From the NCBI GenBank assembly GCA_025965975.1, contig JAOPVX010000066.1, forward strand, positions 1 through 44,005: a stretch of 44,005 nt of DNA, in the 5' to 3' direction. A program made the position numbers and the translations under genes. The notes under the pieces are model-generated. The model saw only the letters and a program-made list of their open reading frames with translations. It was not told where the DNA came from and ran no database searches. Within the stretch, counting starts at the first letter, position 1, and the number at the start of each line of letters is the position of its first letter. Below are positions 25,991 to 32,409 of this stretch, piece by piece. Source of the stretch: Mycobacterium sp. (GTDB taxonomy: Bacteria > Actinomycetota > Actinomycetes > Mycobacteriales > Mycobacteriaceae).

Positions 25991-26710
25991 TCAAACCTCC
26001 TGCGCATCGCCGAACGACATCTCCACGTTGCCAGCTGAACTCGAGACCAGCGCGCGCTTCGGGAAGCCTAGCGAGGCCAGCTCTTTCGCGTATGGATGTT
26101 CGCCGAGTCGAACTCGTGCACCACCTAGCCGGTACCGCACACCGGTCAGCGACATCTCCCCGAGGGTTTCGCGCAAGACGCGGTCACGATACGAGTACGT
26201 AGGGTGTGCCTGCGGACGCGAGGTGAGGGCCGACGGCACGGGCAGGCCGGGCCGGAACTCCATGCCCACCGCCAGCTGGCCGTCGATGCTGACGTCGAAT
26301 CCGAACTGCCGACCATCGCGCACGGTGAAGTCGGCCATCACCTTCGGGTAGCCCCAAATCGTCTGTCCCGCCTCCAAAGTGAACGCCTGGTCGACGGGAA
26401 GGTGGTGAATGAAGGCGCCGGCCGACTGCAGTGCCCGCGGGCCGCTCGCCGTCGACCCTGGCGGATTCACCATCACGTTGGTGCCGTATTCGTAGTACTG
26501 GCCCAAGTCACCGTCGACGTAATGCATGAGCATCAGGACCACGATGGCCCGCCCTGGCAGATACCGGCAGACCTGCATGCCGCTGTAGTCGATCATCTGC
26601 TGGGCGGCATCGGCATCGACGGAGAACATCGCCATGTGCTGGTTGGCCTTGCGGATCTTCACCGGCATCGTGAGAACCGTGCCGGCGATGGTGTGCTGCG
26701 AGGCAGTCAT
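25991..26710 (-). CDS. acetoacetate decarboxylase-like protein (Rv3519-like)
   Basis: This 239-residue protein of the acetoacetate decarboxylase superfamily shows the telltale stretch GQTIWGYPKVMADF (116-129), where K123 matches the Schiff-base lysine of the decarboxylases (IWGFPKK in the classical enzyme). This leaves room for Schiff-base chemistry on a keto-acid or ketosteroid. No substrate is known for the mycobacterial Rv3519 group. The ATG at 26708-26710 lies 10 bases downstream of a palindromic KstR box, with TAGATT in the -10 position, so the mRNA is probably leaderless. The cyp142 start follows the stop closely, so the two are co-transcribed. Confidence 0.8.
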   Translation of the reverse strand: MTASQHTIAGTVLTMPVKIRKANQHMAMFSVDADAAQQMIDYSGMQVCRYLPGRAIVVLMLMHYVDGDLGQYYEYGTNVMVNPPGSTASGPRALQSAGAFIHHLPVDQAFTLEAGQTIWGYPKVMADFTVRDGRQFGFDVSIDGQLAVGMEFRPGLPVPSALTSRPQAHPTYSYRDRVLRETLGEMSLTGVRYRLGGARVRLGEHPYAKELASLGFPKRALVSSSAGNVEMSFGDAQEV

Positions 26711-26720
26711 CCGGTCAATC

Positions 26721-26734
26721 TAGAACGCGTTCTA
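26721..26734. promoter_or_regulatory. KstR operator-like site 5 (Rv3519-like/cyp142 promoter)
   Basis: TAGAACGCGTTCTA is an exact and fully palindromic match; with its flanks the palindrome spans 26720-26735. It lies 10 bases upstream of the ATG at 26710. On the other side is the end of the luciferase-like gene, so this site serves only one direction. Confidence 0.9.
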
Positions 26735-27832: not shown

Positions 27833-27846
27833 TAGAACCTGTTCTA
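27833..27846. promoter_or_regulatory. KstR operator-like site 6 (Rv3520c-like / DUF35-ltp4-ltp3)
   Basis: TAGAACCTGTTCTA is an exact match in the divergent region. The GTG of the DUF35 gene starts 9 bases to the right and the luciferase-like ATG lies 47 bases to the left. The rightward unit therefore looks leaderless, though its -10 hexamer is weaker than at fadD19. Confidence 0.9.
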
Positions 27847-27855
27847 CTCGATGCC

Positions 27856-28848
27856 GTGACCACCAGCCAAAGCAGCCCGGTGCAGATCGACCCGCATGAG
27901 CCGCCCCTTTCGGCACCGCTGAAGCTGTCCTTCGACTACACCCGTTCAGTCGGACCACTCCTCAGCCAGTTCTTCACCGCCCTGCGCGAGCGAGGCATCG
28001 TGGGCGTGCGCGGTTCGGACGGGCGAGTGCATGTGCCGCCTGCCGAATTCGACCCCGTCACCTATGGACGACTGACCGAGATCGTACCGGTGGCCAGCGT
28101 CGGGACCGTGGTGTCGTGGACCTGGCAGCCTGCCCCGCTGGAGGGCCAGCCGCTCGACCGGCCGTTCGCGTGGGCACTGATCAAGCTCGACGGTGCGGAC
28201 ACCCCGCTGCTGCACGCGGTCGACGCCGGTTCCTCCGACGCGATCAAGTCCGGCACCCGGGTGCACGTGCACTGGGCCGACGAACCGGTCGGCGCGATCA
28301 CCGACATCGCCCACTTCGCGCTTGGCGACACGGCCGAGGCGGTGCCGGACACGACGGACGACCGTGACCCGGTCACCGTGCAGGTGACGCCATCCGCGAT
28401 CGAGATTCAGCACACCGCTTCACTTCCCGAGAGCGCCTACCTGCGGGCGTTGCAGCAGGGCAAGCTCCTCGGTGGACGGACCGGCAAGGACGGGAAGGTC
28501 TACTTCCCAGCGCGCGAAGCCGATCCCGCGACCGGCCGGCAACTCGACGACTTCATCGAGTTGCCGGACAAGGGCACCGTGACGACGTTCGCTGTCATCA
28601 ACATCCCCTTCGCCGGCCAGCGCATCAAGCCGCCGTACGTCGCGGCGTACGTTCTGCTCGACGGTGCCGACATCGCGTTTCTGCACCTGATCCAGGAGAT
28701 CGACGCCACCGAAGTCCGGATGGGCATGCGTGTCGAGGCGGTGTGGATACCCAGCGAGGAGTGGGGCCTTGGCATCGACAACATCGAGTACTTCCGGCCG
28801 ACCGGCGAACCTGACGCCGATTACGACACCTACAAGCACCACCTGTAA
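27856..28848 (+). CDS. tandem DUF35-type OB-fold protein without cysteines (Rv3521-like)
   Basis: This encodes 330 residues from the GTG at 27856; the open frame upstream crosses the promoter and is not coding. Two similar halves are visible: residues 26-154 (FDYTRSVGPLLSQFF to TDIAHF) and 185-314 (IQHTASLPESAYLRAL to DNIEYFRP). Each has a helical hairpin, a would-be zinc-ribbon loop (GVRGSDGRVHVPPAE, GGRTGKDGKVYFPAR) and an OB fold with an FAWALIKLDGAD or VAAYVLLDGAD strand. DUF35 proteins normally carry four zinc cysteines in that loop; this one has no cysteine anywhere. DUF35 domains are partners of thiolase-like proteins (ChsH2 with Ltp2), and the next two genes are ltp4 and ltp3. It is probably a structural or acyl-CoA-binding subunit for both. 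Confidence 0.82.
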   Translation: MTTSQSSPVQIDPHEPPLSAPLKLSFDYTRSVGPLLSQFFTALRERGIVGVRGSDGRVHVPPAEFDPVTYGRLTEIVPVASVGTVVSWTWQPAPLEGQPLDRPFAWALIKLDGADTPLLHAVDAGSSDAIKSGTRVHVHWADEPVGAITDIAHFALGDTAEAVPDTTDDRDPVTVQVTPSAIEIQHTASLPESAYLRALQQGKLLGGRTGKDGKVYFPAREADPATGRQLDDFIELPDKGTVTTFAVINIPFAGQRIKPPYVAAYVLLDGADIAFLHLIQEIDATEVRMGMRVEAVWIPSEEWGLGIDNIEYFRPTGEPDADYDTYKHHL

Positions 28849-28861
28849 GAGGGATTGGACC

Positions 28862-29926
28862 GTGACTGAACGCGACATAGCTGTCGTCGGCTTCGCCCAC
28901 GCGCCGCACGTGCGCCGCACCGACGGAACCACCAACGGCGTCGAAATGCTGATGCCCTGCTTCGCCTCGATATACGAAGAGCTGGGCCTGAAGCAGACCG
29001 ATATCGGCTTCTGGTGCTCCGGATCGTCGGACTATCTTGCGGGTCGGGCATTTTCGTTCATTTCGGCCATCGACTCGATCGGGGCGGTGCCGCCGATCAA
29101 CGAGTCGCATGTCGAAATGGACGCGGCATGGGCGCTCTACGAGGCCTACATCAAGCTGCTGACCGGTCAGGTCGACACCGCGGTCGTCTACGGGTTCGGC
29201 AAGTCCTCGGCGGGTACCCTGCGCCGGGTCCTCGCGCTGCAGACCGATCCCTATACCGTCGCGCCCCTGTGGCCCGACTCCGTTTCGATAGCCGGCCTGC
29301 AGGCGCGGTTCGGCCTTGACGCAGGCAAGTGGACGGCCGAGCAGATGGCCCAGGTGGCGCTGGATTCGTTCGCGGTCGCCCAACGTACCGACTCGGAGAA
29401 ACCCGCCAAGAGCATCGACGAACTGCTCGCCCGCCCGTACTTCGCGGATCCGCTGCGCCGTCACGACATCGCACCGATCACCGATGGCGCGTCCGCGATC
29501 GTGCTTGCGGCGGGCGACAAGGCCCGTGAGCTCCGCGAGAACCCGGCGTGGATAACCGGTTTCGAGCACCGCATCGAGACCCCGGTGCTTGGCGCGCGGG
29601 ACCTGACGACCTCGCCGTCGACCACGGCGTCGGCCAAGGCCGCGACGGGCGGCGACACCGGCTCCATCGAGGTGGCCGAGATCTACGCGCCGTTCACCCA
29701 TCAGCACCTGATCCTGACCGAGGCGATCGGCCTTGGGGGGTCGACGAAGGTGAACCCGTCGGGGGGCGCGCTGGCGGCCAACCCGATGTTCTCCGCAGGC
29801 CTCGAGCGCATCGGCTTCGCCGCGCAGCACATCTTCAACGGCTCGGCCCGGCGGGTGCTCGCGCACGCCACGAGTGGCCCCGCGCTGCAACAGAATTTGG
29901 TGGCGGTCCTGGAAGGAAAGAACTGA
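28862..29926 (+). CDS. ltp4: thiolase-like lipid-transfer protein Ltp4
   Basis: This 354-residue thiolase-superfamily protein starts at GTG 28862 after AGAGGG. The usual nucleophile cysteine is absent: the corresponding segment reads INESHVEMDA (79-88). The HDAF/HDCF histidine is replaced by tyrosine in AEIYAPFTH (Y275), and the C-terminal CGH block by NPSGG (298-302). This pattern is that of steroid retro-aldolases such as Ltp2, not of thiolases. ltp3 and ltp4 are reported as essential for C24-branched sterol side-chain degradation in Rhodococcus rhodochrous. It lies 13 bases after the DUF35 gene and overlaps ltp3 by one base. Confidence 0.88.
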   Translation: MTERDIAVVGFAHAPHVRRTDGTTNGVEMLMPCFASIYEELGLKQTDIGFWCSGSSDYLAGRAFSFISAIDSIGAVPPINESHVEMDAAWALYEAYIKLLTGQVDTAVVYGFGKSSAGTLRRVLALQTDPYTVAPLWPDSVSIAGLQARFGLDAGKWTAEQMAQVALDSFAVAQRTDSEKPAKSIDELLARPYFADPLRRHDIAPITDGASAIVLAAGDKARELRENPAWITGFEHRIETPVLGARDLTTSPSTTASAKAATGGDTGSIEVAEIYAPFTHQHLILTEAIGLGGSTKVNPSGGALAANPMFSAGLERIGFAAQHIFNGSARRVLAHATSGPALQQNLVAVLEGKN

Positions 29927-31095
29927 TGGCGGGGCAGTTGGCCGCGGTGCTCGGCACCGGGCAGACGAAGTACGTCGCCAAGCGGCAAGACGTGTCGATG
30001 AACGGCCTTGTCCGCGAGGCGATCGACAAGGCGCTTGCGGACTCGGGGTGCACGTTCGACGACGTCGACGCCGTTGTGGTCGGTAAGGCGCCCGATTTCT
30101 TCGAGGGCGTGATGATGCCCGAGCTGTTCATGGCCGACGCCGTCGGCGCCACCGGCAAGCCGCTGATCCGCGTGCACACCGCAGGCTCGGTGGGCGGCTC
30201 GACGGCCGTGGTGGCCGCCAGCCTCGTGCAGTCGGGCAAGTACCGGCGGGTGCTGGCAATGGCGTGGGAGAAGCAGTCGGAGTCGAATGCCATGTGGGCG
30301 TTGAGCATTCCGGTGCCGTTCACCAAGCCGGTCGGCGCGGGCGCCGGTGGGTATTTCGCGCCGCACGTGCGGGCATACATCCGTCGTTCGGGCGCGCCGG
30401 CGCACATCGGCGCGATGGTGGCGGTCAAGGACCGCCTCAACGGGGCCAAGAACCCGTTGGCCCATCTGCACCAACCCGACATCACGCTGGAGAAGGTGCT
30501 GTCGTCGCAGATGCTGTGGGATCCCATCCGTTTCGACGAGACGTGCCCCTCCTCAGACGGCGCGTGCGCGCTGGTGATCGGCGACGAGGCCGCCGCCGAT
30601 GCGCGCGTCGCCGACGGCCATCCCGTCGCGTGGATCCACGCGACGGCGCTGCGCACGGAACCGCTGGCATACTCGGGCCGCGACCAGGTCAACCCCCAGG
30701 CAGGACGCGATGCGGCCGCCGCGCTGTGGAAAGCGGCCGGGATCACCAGCCCGATCGACGAGATCGACGTCGCCGAGGTTTACGTCCCGTTCTCGTGGTT
30801 CGAGCCGATGTGGCTGGAGAACCTCGGTTTTGCGCCAGAAGGTGAGGGCTGGAAGCTCACCGAAGCGGGTGAGACTGCAATCGGCGGCCGCATCCCCTTC
30901 AACCCGTCCGGCGGCGTGCTGTCGTCGAATCCGATCGGCGCGTCGGGCATGATCCGCTTCGCCGAAGCGGCGATTCAGGTGATGGGCAAGGCCGGTGACC
31001 ACCAGGTCGAGGGCGCCCGCAAGGCGCTTGGACACGCATACGGCGGCGGGTCGCAGTACTACTCGATGTGGGTCGTTTCGGCGGACAAGCTGTGA
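29926..31095 (+). CDS. ltp3: thiolase-like lipid-transfer protein Ltp3
   Basis: This encodes 389 residues from the ATG at 29926, which shares one base with the ltp4 stop (TGATG). The thiolase fold is clear (VGGSTAVVAASLVQSGKYRR), but the nucleophile segment is VHTAGSVGG (83-91) without cysteine. The histidine motif reads AEVYVPFS with Y286, and the end motif is NPSGG (326-330). Together with Ltp4 and the DUF35 protein it probably forms a mixed complex that cleaves a C-C bond of the activated side chain by retro-aldol chemistry. Substrate and product cannot be read from sequence. Confidence 0.88.
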   Translation: MAGQLAAVLGTGQTKYVAKRQDVSMNGLVREAIDKALADSGCTFDDVDAVVVGKAPDFFEGVMMPELFMADAVGATGKPLIRVHTAGSVGGSTAVVAASLVQSGKYRRVLAMAWEKQSESNAMWALSIPVPFTKPVGAGAGGYFAPHVRAYIRRSGAPAHIGAMVAVKDRLNGAKNPLAHLHQPDITLEKVLSSQMLWDPIRFDETCPSSDGACALVIGDEAAADARVADGHPVAWIHATALRTEPLAYSGRDQVNPQAGRDAAAALWKAAGITSPIDEIDVAEVYVPFSWFEPMWLENLGFAPEGEGWKLTEAGETAIGGRIPFNPSGGVLSSNPIGASGMIRFAEAAIQVMGKAGDHQVEGARKALGHAYGGGSQYYSMWVVSADKL

Positions 31096-31126: not shown

Positions 31127-32008
31127 ATGATGCAGTACACCTGCAGCGTGGCGATGGGTCCGATCGACCAGCTGATCGAGATCGCCAAGACCGCAGAGGA
31201 AGTCGGGTTCGACTCGATCGCGCTGCCGGACTCGGTGTTCTACATGGAGAAGCAGTCCGCGGACTATCCGTACACCGCCGACGGCTCACGGATGTGGAAT
31301 GAGGACACGCCATGGGCCGATCCGCTCATCGCCGCCGGTGCCATGGGTGCGGTGACCTCGAAGCTGCGGTTCTACACGAACGTGATGAAGCTCGGATCCC
31401 GCAACCCTCTTCTACTGGCACGCCAGGTGGGGTCGGTGGCCAACCTGACCAAAAACCGCTTCGGGTTCGGCGTCGGAATCGGCTGGGCACCTGAGGAATT
31501 CGAATGGTGCGGCGTGCCCTATGCGAAGCGCGGCAAGCGTGTCGACGAGATGATCGAGGTGATCAAGCTCGTCCTCGACGGCGGCATGGTCGAGTTCCAC
31601 GGCGAGTTCTACGACTTCGATAGGCTGCAGATGAGCCCCGCGCCGAGCAAGCCGGTGCCGTTGTACGTCGGCGGCCACACCGAGGTGGCTCTGCGGCGTG
31701 CCGCCCGGATCGGCGACGGCTGGACCAGTGCGATGATGACCTGCGACCAGCTGGCCGAGACCATCGGCAAGATCAACGCATTGCGGGCCGAATACGGCCG
31801 TGGCAACGAGCCGTTCGAATTCCAGGCGGTGTGTATCGACAAGTTCGGTGTCGACGGGCACCGCGAGCTCGCCGAGGCGGGCGTCACCGACAACATCGTC
31901 ATCCCGTGGATATTCGACGGGCTGAGTTTCGACGCTCCGATCGACAAGAAGAAGGACTCGCTGAAGCGCTTCGCCGACACCTACATCCACTCGGGATGGC
32001 AACGGTGA
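31127..32008 (+). CDS. LLM-class F420-dependent oxidoreductase, second copy
   Basis: This 293-residue luciferase-like protein starts at the ATG at 31127, or the adjacent ATG at 31130. Typical segments are EIAKTAEEVGFDSIALPDSV, LTKNRFGFGVGIGWAPEEF and PLYVGGHTEVALRRAARIGD. It is unlike the Rv3520c-like protein in detail, being shorter and closer to the TIGR03619 type. It is read from the ltp4-ltp3 transcript and overlaps the NTF2-like gene. A redox step on a sterol intermediate is inferred from context only. I do not recall it at this spot in M. tuberculosis. Confidence 0.82.
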   Translation: MMQYTCSVAMGPIDQLIEIAKTAEEVGFDSIALPDSVFYMEKQSADYPYTADGSRMWNEDTPWADPLIAAGAMGAVTSKLRFYTNVMKLGSRNPLLLARQVGSVANLTKNRFGFGVGIGWAPEEFEWCGVPYAKRGKRVDEMIEVIKLVLDGGMVEFHGEFYDFDRLQMSPAPSKPVPLYVGGHTEVALRRAARIGDGWTSAMMTCDQLAETIGKINALRAEYGRGNEPFEFQAVCIDKFGVDGHRELAEAGVTDNIVIPWIFDGLSFDAPIDKKKDSLKRFADTYIHSGWQR

Positions 32009-32409
32009 CCGACTCCCCCGTCCACTTGGCGGGCAAGCGCTCCCGCGAAGCCGCCATGGCTCGCGACAAGGAGGCCTGGCTGGCGGTGTTCGCCGACGAT
32101 GCCATCGTCGAGGATCCGATCGGACCGTCGCACTTCGACCCGGAGGGCAAGGGCCACCGCGGCAAGGAGGCGATCGCAAAGTTCTACGACATGGCGATCG
32201 CACCGAGCGAGCTCACGTTCAACTTCGAGAAGACCTACCAGTGCGGCAACGAGGAAGCCAACGTCGGCAACATCGTGATCAAGGCCGCCGGATACGAGGT
32301 CACCGCGGAGGGTGTGTTCACCTACCGGGTCGACGACGAGGGCAAGATCGTAGCGCTGCGCGCATACTGGGAACTCGACCGCGCGACCGCCAGCGCACGA
32401 AAGATCTAG
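32005..32409 (+). CDS. NTF2-like (SnoaL/ketosteroid isomerase-fold) protein
   Basis: This encodes 134 residues from the GTG at 32005, which overlaps the previous stop (GTGA); an ATG at 31996 would add three residues. The pattern AWLAVFADDAIVEDPIGPS and GKEAIAKFYDMAI is typical of the NTF2/SnoaL alpha+beta cone. Ketosteroid isomerase has this fold with a catalytic Asp and Tyr; several acids (DDAIVEDP, D31-D38 region) could serve, but the identity is not certain. The context with sterol genes makes an isomerase or hydratase role reasonable. It is the last gene of the ltp4-ltp3 unit. Confidence 0.8.
   Translation: MTDSPVHLAGKRSREAAMARDKEAWLAVFADDAIVEDPIGPSHFDPEGKGHRGKEAIAKFYDMAIAPSELTFNFEKTYQCGNEEANVGNIVIKAAGYEVTAEGVFTYRVDDEGKIVALRAYWELDRATASARKI

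Follow-up and report, generated by a model that had tools for sequence, protein, structure and literature searches.

A mycobacterial operon of a tandem DUF35 protein, Ltp4 and Ltp3, predicted to encode an asymmetric sterol side-chain aldol-lyase

Among the closest described systems are the Ltp2-ChsH2 complex (PDB 6ok1) and the Sal-Shy complex of Comamonas (PDB 9myr), in each of which a thiolase-fold aldolase has a DUF35 partner, and here we compare with them an operon from a 44,005-nucleotide stretch of Mycobacterium sp. (GenBank assembly GCA_025965975.1, contig JAOPVX010000066.1; the whole stretch is called the window) that encodes a tandem DUF35 protein and two thiolase-like proteins, Ltp4 and Ltp3. 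Ltp2 is a homodimer with two equal sites and one type of DUF35, and the Sal homodimer forms, as in Ltp2, an alpha-beta-beta-alpha complex with one DUF35 per aldolase (PMC12329534; this and the other papers are cited from excerpts). The catalytic residues are Tyr294 (in the motif YDHF) and Tyr344 in TcLtp2, and Tyr302 and Cys304 in CtSal (PMC12329534). Tandem-module DUF35 proteins were noted in general terms in 2010, in a paper whose excerpts connect the tandem form neither with Ltp pairs nor with the loss of zinc ligands (PMC2954200).

The locus is real and conserved and is largely known already as a sterol aldol-lyase, to which we add a probable lopsidedness read from sequence. We consider it probable that the product of the operon is a heteromeric retro-aldolase of asymmetric build that acts on plant sterols with a C24-branched side chain, with Ltp3 as the catalytic subunit and Ltp4 as a non-catalytic partner. 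The names Ltp4 and Ltp3 are taken from the initial annotation of this DNA and from the gene order of Rv3521-Rv3523, and the two proteins match NCBIfam NF005924 and NF006180, respectively, both above cut-off. The genes and the residues that matter are as follows.

27856 to 28848, + strand: tandem DUF35 protein, 330 amino acids, GTG start, no cysteine; equivalent of Rv3521 by gene context
27856 to 28350, + strand: DUF35 N-half, residues 1-165; PPxE[FYW]DP-like loop, zinc set absent in every N-half aligned
28351 to 28845, + strand: DUF35 C-half, residues 166-330; the window lineage has lost the zinc ligands, which most aligned relatives retain
28862 to 29926, + strand: ltp4, thiolase-fold protein without nucleophile, 354 amino acids; NF005924
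29114 to 29116, + strand: codon of Ltp4 Glu85, on the thiolase nucleophilic cysteine in profile alignments
29684 to 29686, + strand: codon of Ltp4 Tyr275, the catalytic tyrosine of the initial annotation; unconserved in the family
29926 to 31095, + strand: ltp3, thiolase-fold protein and presumed catalytic subunit, 389 amino acids; NF006180
30781 to 30783, + strand: codon of Ltp3 Tyr286 (in YVPF), which corresponds to the catalytic bases of TcLtp2 (Tyr294) and CtSal (Tyr302), whose function is from PMC12329534
31039 to 31041, + strand: codon of Ltp3 Tyr372 (HAYGGG), candidate general acid in the C-terminal active-site loop

The tandem DUF35 gene is adjacent to ltp4-ltp3, and ltp4 and ltp3 share one base of overlap. 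Pfam OB_ChsH2_C matches the tandem protein in two stretches (E 2.3e-26), and PF01796 gives a whole-protein score of 91.9 bits against a cut-off of 27.1, with both domains above cut-off in the genome scan. Pfam and sequence thus point to two DUF35 halves, and the cysteine-free protein of two halves that had been annotated is what we find.

Unequal active sites in Ltp3 and Ltp4

Both Ltps are thiolase-type paralogues that have lost the nucleophile, and in their alignments the tyrosine base of Ltp2 and Sal is kept only in Ltp3. The nucleophilic cysteine of SCP2 thiolase and the motifs HDCF and GHP are absent from both proteins (among 22 thiolase-like paralogues aligned as a control, 7 have both the nucleophile cysteine and GHP), and the cysteines that remain, 33 and 52 in Ltp4 and 42, 207 and 214 in Ltp3, do not lie at that position. 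Gly87 of Ltp3 and Glu85 of Ltp4 stand at or near it, at an equal spacing of 30 residues from a conserved lysine (G87-K116 and E85-K114), and the nucleophile column holds glycine in all 48 distant Ltps that cover it. The thiolase fold without nucleophile that had been annotated for both proteins is therefore upheld.

Conservation was evaluated in a first set (53 Ltp3s and 55 Ltp4s) and a named set (78 and 81), which may have species in common. Both tyrosines that were said to replace the catalytic histidine are in the window, Tyr286 within YVPF of Ltp3 and Tyr275 within YAPF of Ltp4, but only the former is a family trait. Tyr286 is invariant in both sets (53/53 and 78/78), as are Pro288 and Asn335 in the first (53/53), and Tyr372 is found in 51 of 53 and in 77 of 78 with one gap. 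Position 275 of Ltp4, by comparison, is His in 37, Gln in 8, Tyr in 5, Cys in 2, Asn in 1, Ala in 1 and a gap in 1 of the first set, and Tyr in 34, His in 33 and Cys in 14 of the named set, with at least 9 changes on a quick tree of the 81 sequences. Because this position varies among Tyr, His and Cys, Tyr275 is no conserved catalytic residue of Ltp4.

Comparison with the described aldolases revealed that the base is the only catalytic residue in common. Ltp3 shares with Ltp2 the thiolase fold without nucleophile, a putative DUF35 partner and a tyrosine at the HxxF position, and shares with Sal the tyrosine base, glycine at the nucleophile position and the lack of Tyr344. All 8 aligned Ltp2s have YDHF, and 7 have GEAY (SEGY in the eighth), whereas Ltp3 has SNP and YVPF and Ltp4 has ANP and YAPF; in both proteins Asn-Pro thus replaces the motif of Tyr344 and proline replaces the histidine of YDHF, so that the "pattern of Ltp2" given by the initial annotation does not describe them. 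The catalytic cysteine of Sal (Cys304, in YDCY) is likewise replaced by proline, which is Pro288 in 53 of 53 Ltp3s, Pro277 in the window Ltp4 and proline in 41 of 55 of the Ltp4 family. Only the base tyrosine is common to Ltp3 and Ltp2/Sal, and our candidate for the general acid is Tyr372, on the C-terminal active-site loop.

Ltp4 was modelled as a single chain (mean predicted local distance difference test score, pLDDT, 69; predicted template-modelling score 0.74), with three of the five models averaging 44-47. A Foldseek search with the model matched thiolases, including 6ok1 (6ok1_A, template-modelling score 0.64) and 9myr, and the model supports the fold class only; the fold of Ltp3 is assigned by sequence.

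Ltp4 is conserved at other positions. Ser82, His83, Glu85, Asp87, His236, Arg246, His280 and His335 are invariant in 81 of 81 Ltp4s, and in the first set position 85 is Glu in 54 of 55 and Asp in one. Profile alignments place Glu85 (HVEMD) on the nucleophilic cysteine of 7yvy, 6esq and 6hsj with no gap nearby, and the multiple alignment shifts it three residues away from the nucleophile column. Ltp4 could then have a rebuilt active site (His83, Glu85 and Asp87) that carries out a second reaction of the pathway, or it could supply the Ltp3 site with Glu85 from across the dimer interface. The placement of Glu85 on the nucleophile position and its invariance, which His83 shares, favour this, and so does a V-[E/A]-x-D motif that the partner protein of each of the five distant pairs has in line with HVEMD (see below). 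We nevertheless regard such a site as unlikely, since alanine replaces the glutamate in two of these pairs (three have Glu), the invariance could equally reflect a structural role at the dimer interface, and both the three-residue offset and the unreliable modelling of the loop weaken the placement of Glu85.

The initial annotation had instead proposed a symmetric enzyme in which both Ltps are active through their own tyrosine, one on each DUF35 half. Both tyrosines are present in the window, and Ltp4 is strongly conserved at other positions (such as Ser82, His83, Glu85, Asp87 and His280), but position 275 is other than tyrosine in 49 of 55 (gap aside) and 47 of 81 Ltp4s, with His, Cys, Gln, Asn or Ala in its place. 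We therefore abandoned a second, equivalent active site in Ltp4, and two working tyrosine sites seem to us improbable.

Co-inheritance of two Ltps with two DUF35 modules

Gene-order comparisons revealed that a pair of DUF35 modules is co-inherited with a pair of Ltps in fused, split and rearranged loci alike, as the annotation of the window had implied. Among 60 loci chosen by their DUF35 match, 53 have the order DUF35N-DUF35C-Ltp4-Ltp3 (39 with fused DUF35s and 14 with split genes), and the remaining 7 are 2 that are cut by contig ends and 5 distant variants. When loci were found by Ltp4, all three genes were whole in 76 of 80 named loci; of the incomplete four, L207 and L221 are cut by contig ends within or ahead of Ltp3, the Ltp3 of L204 is spread over two reading frames and L172, on a 3.1-kb contig, is without a DUF35 gene. 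Ltp4 was found at E <= 1e-30 in 64 of 200 genomes of the order, 63 of which are matched by the tandem DUF35 protein as well, at E <= 1.3e-30 (lists compared by eye), and the one genome without such a match is 77% complete and in 520 contigs (G128). The named loci closest to the window (L144-L202) are labelled Mycobacterium, Mycolicibacterium or close kin in 55 of 59 cases.

Two Ltps with two DUF35s also recur in the 5 distant loci and in 17 of 20 further regions, which were chosen by DUF35 matches (the remaining 3 run off their contigs), with gene orders that include DUF35-Ltp-Ltp-DUF35 and Ltp-Ltp-DUF35-DUF35. In 9 loci, one of them cut at a contig end, an Ltp3-like protein is fused to one DUF35 and a second DUF35 lies alongside. 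The locus thus differs from that of Ltp2-ChsH2 in having two DUF35 types, and an assembly of 1:1:1 with one Ltp on each DUF35 half, as first annotated, may be its outcome.

Trees place the two Ltps as separate lineages of one group. With paralogues included, Ltp3, Ltp4 and 10 distant Ltps fall on one side of a branch (support 100/98) and 22 paralogues and 8 Ltp2s on the other; within the former, the Ltp4 side has support of 99/90 and the Ltp3 side of 93/93, and four of the five distant pairs divide between them. Without paralogues all five pairs divide (93/89 and 86/71). In both trees the 53 Ltp3s and 55 Ltp4s are represented by those of the window and of 10 other loci, and the paralogues come from 22 of 27 loci (L227-L253, two genomes), with two Ltp2s, two partial sequences (by hand) and L240 (by a length and position filter) left out. 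The deepest splits are moderately supported, and the DUF35 tree has a weak backbone.

The Ltp3-like proteins with a fused C-terminal DUF35 (L254-L261 and L073) belong to other members of the phylum and would suit as single-chain models of the Ltp-DUF35 interface. In all 9 fusions the fused DUF35 gives its higher score with the C profile, yet we dropped an assignment of DUF35-C to Ltp3 because the cysteines of this profile bias the score and the backbone of the tree is not resolved. A separate observation concerns L172, whose contig is labelled as a metagenome-assembled genome of Bifidobacterium breve and carries ltp4-ltp3 with an Ltp4 83% identical to that of the window; we guess that this is binning contamination.

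Zinc binding was scored against the four zinc cysteines of TcChsH2. The set is found in none of 56 N-halves, one of which has a single cysteine, and the third cysteine position is Asp in all 56. The C-half is of zinc type in 45 of 60 (CCCC in 29 and CCCD in 16; the 60 include 5 distant relatives, all CCCC) and has none or one of the zinc cysteines in 15, the window among them (TDDT). A cysteine-free protein of 330 amino acids is not rare in itself, being expected in a few per cent of cases at about 1% cysteine content; the absence is meaningful because the homologous zinc ribbons have four cysteines and because 52 of 58 tandem relatives in loci L144-L202 are also cysteine-free. In the distant loci both modules have 4-6 cysteines in a ribbon region of about 70 residues (cysteines were counted, ligands not mapped). 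We take this to mean that the N module of this family was the first to lose zinc, and that the C module followed in mycobacteria and certain other lineages.

A zinc-free DUF35 had been annotated as a feature that sets this locus apart from ChsH2-Ltp2, and this is true against the Thermomonospora protein (and the DUF35 of Shy has a C3H1 zinc finger), but the window genome's own ChsH2 DUF35 also has no cysteine and most relatives keep the ligands, so we rejected it as a distinguishing mark. ChsH2-type DUF35s, found at 6 of 10 Ltp2 loci (a seventh row is the same gene from an overlapping locus), have 0 cysteines in the window genome and in another genome of the genus, 1 in one and 4 in three. The window genome (7.4 Mb) has 20 matches to PF01796, 19 of them above cut-off, and among its other DUF35 domains the ribbon cysteines are absent from L129 (G000:C169) and L130 (C325); L129 adjoins L227, a thiolase-like protein that retains the cysteine, HDCF and GHP. 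A further DUF35, L123 (G000:C47:34627-34815), has one ribbon cysteine and lies beside the YDCF thiolase-like protein L251 (C47:33320-34435), and this pair is possibly an aldolase of the Atf1/ChsH4 type (name from PMC10398937).

Sterol context of the operon

The operon stands behind a putative site of the sterol regulator KstR:

27833 to 27846, + strand: KstR operator-like palindrome TAGAACCTGTTCTA, 9 bases before the DUF35 start codon; exact match to TNNAACNNGTTNNA

Eight KstR-type sites were observed in the window against 0.15 expected. Its neighbouring genes encode FadD17, EchA19, six MCE proteins, F420-type enzymes and an acyl-CoA (acyl-coenzyme A) synthetase, which by position we take to be FadD19. 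Two neighbours are recorded here for their location. An acetoacetate-decarboxylase-family protein (26710 to 25991, i.e. 25991-26710 on the - strand) has its own KstR-type site at 26721-26734 near the aldolase genes, and should carboxylation of the C28 branch precede cleavage, aldol cleavage would yield a beta-keto acid and a decarboxylase there would fit. Directly after ltp3 lie a luciferase-like F420-type enzyme (31127-32008) and a SnoaL-like protein (32011-32409), both on the + strand.

The KstR paper of 2007 gives an identical core between Rv3520c and Rv3521 (PMC1995591). Ltp3/Ltp4 of Rhodococcus rhodochrous and Rv3522/Rv3523 of the KstR regulon are equivalent to the window genes (NF005924/NF006180, with the same KstR core before the DUF35 gene), and in the excerpts of literature on them we found nothing on a DUF35 partner, subunit asymmetry or zinc. 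Ltp3 and Ltp4 are described as aldol-lyases of C24-branched sterols (Wilbrink 2012, as cited by PMC10398937, PMC6678751, PMC4761994, PMC8708139 and PMC6593523), a review of 2019 names Ltp3-Ltp4 a "heteromeric aldol-lyase" (PMC6678751), and phytosterol induces ltp3 and ltp4 about 97-fold in one Mycobacterium (PMC6593523). For the window genes this activity is predicted from family match and regulation, and it is on account of the published genetics that we assign retro-aldol cleavage of the C24 branch. With the KstR site and conserved synteny, these data agree with the side-chain aldolase first annotated.

Proposed mechanism, alternatives and meaning

In the asymmetric enzyme that we favour, an Ltp3-Ltp4 heterodimer would take the central place of the Ltp2 or Sal homodimer, with one DUF35 module flanking each Ltp. 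In the hydrated CoA thioester, the hydroxyl at C24 would lose its proton to Tyr286 of Ltp3, cleavage of the C24-C25 bond would follow, and the acyl-CoA enolate would be re-protonated by Tyr372 or by water held by Asn335. Ltp4 would turn over no substrate and would complete the dimer, its vacated pocket perhaps taking the sterol nucleus, far from C24, while the DUF35 modules would shape the pocket through protein contacts that, in the window lineage, need no zinc.

Several observations weigh against this proposal. Neither the acid Tyr344 of Ltp2 nor Cys304 of Sal is present in Ltp3 or Ltp4; some Ltp3-like proteins beyond the Ltp3 family proper have H, F or Q at the tyrosine position; residues 56-86 of the Ltp4 model have pLDDT < 50, and its active-site loop is unreliable; and with paralogues in the tree the fifth distant pair (L073) does not divide between the Ltp3 side and the Ltp4 side, although division is not rejected (approximately unbiased test, p 0.306). 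M. neoaurum WIII also still forms 4-HBC from phytosterols when either ltp3 or ltp4 alone is knocked out (PMC10398937), so that the two genes are not strictly essential in that strain.

The missing acids and the WIII knock-outs would suit some other function, be it decarboxylation, a Claisen-type step or the carrying of acyl-CoA without catalysis, as would the proposal that DUF35 proteins deliver acyl-CoA (PMC2954200). We give this a slim chance, since the published genetics gives aldolytic cleavage of the C24 branch and since Ltp3 retains the base tyrosine and has glycine in place of the nucleophile as in CtSal. That the two Ltps are separate aldolases of different specificity sharing an operon is highly improbable: the tie between them is here one of gene order and co-inheritance, but the set of two Ltps and two DUF35s persists through rearrangement, splitting and fusion, and a separate second DUF35 stays adjacent in the 9 loci with an Ltp3-like/DUF35 fusion.

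Only tentatively do we extend the asymmetric enzyme to a wider class. Ltp3/Ltp4 may represent an ancient class of thiolase-superfamily enzymes of Actinomycetota that are obligate heterodimers, made of two dissimilar Ltps together with two dissimilar DUF35 modules, in which the nucleophile position of Ltp4 became an invariant glutamate (HVEMD), the vacated pocket was rebuilt to hold substrate or to lend Glu85 to the partner's site, and zinc was bound at the origin and then lost stepwise, from the N module first and then from the C module of mycobacteria. Pairs with one inactive member are known in the thiolase superfamily, ketosynthase and chain-length factor being one of them. Another is found in the PhlABC acyltransferase, with PhlA inactive (PMC2954200), which differs in that it acylates phenols and has one DUF35 per PhlC (PMC12329534). 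Our search of the open-access literature found no paper on a DUF35 partner of Ltp3/Ltp4 (neither Ltp is named in PMC12329534), and no description of the subunit asymmetry, of the make-up of two Ltps to two DUF35s beyond the fused form, of the Ltp4 glutamate near or at the nucleophile position, or of stepwise loss of zinc ligands.

Plant sterols are a main feedstock for the mycobacterial production of steroid drugs, and it is here that the C24 branch is removed. Should catalysis lie in one subunit alone, with the other doing no more than shape the pocket, all the proteins would be needed together in assays and in engineering, and Ltp3 would be the one to target. Sterol degradation has a pattern of heteromeric enzymes that retain only some of their active sites. 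Ltp3/Ltp4 would, if our proposal is true, extend this pattern, and many uncharacterised paired systems in Actinomycetota are indicated.

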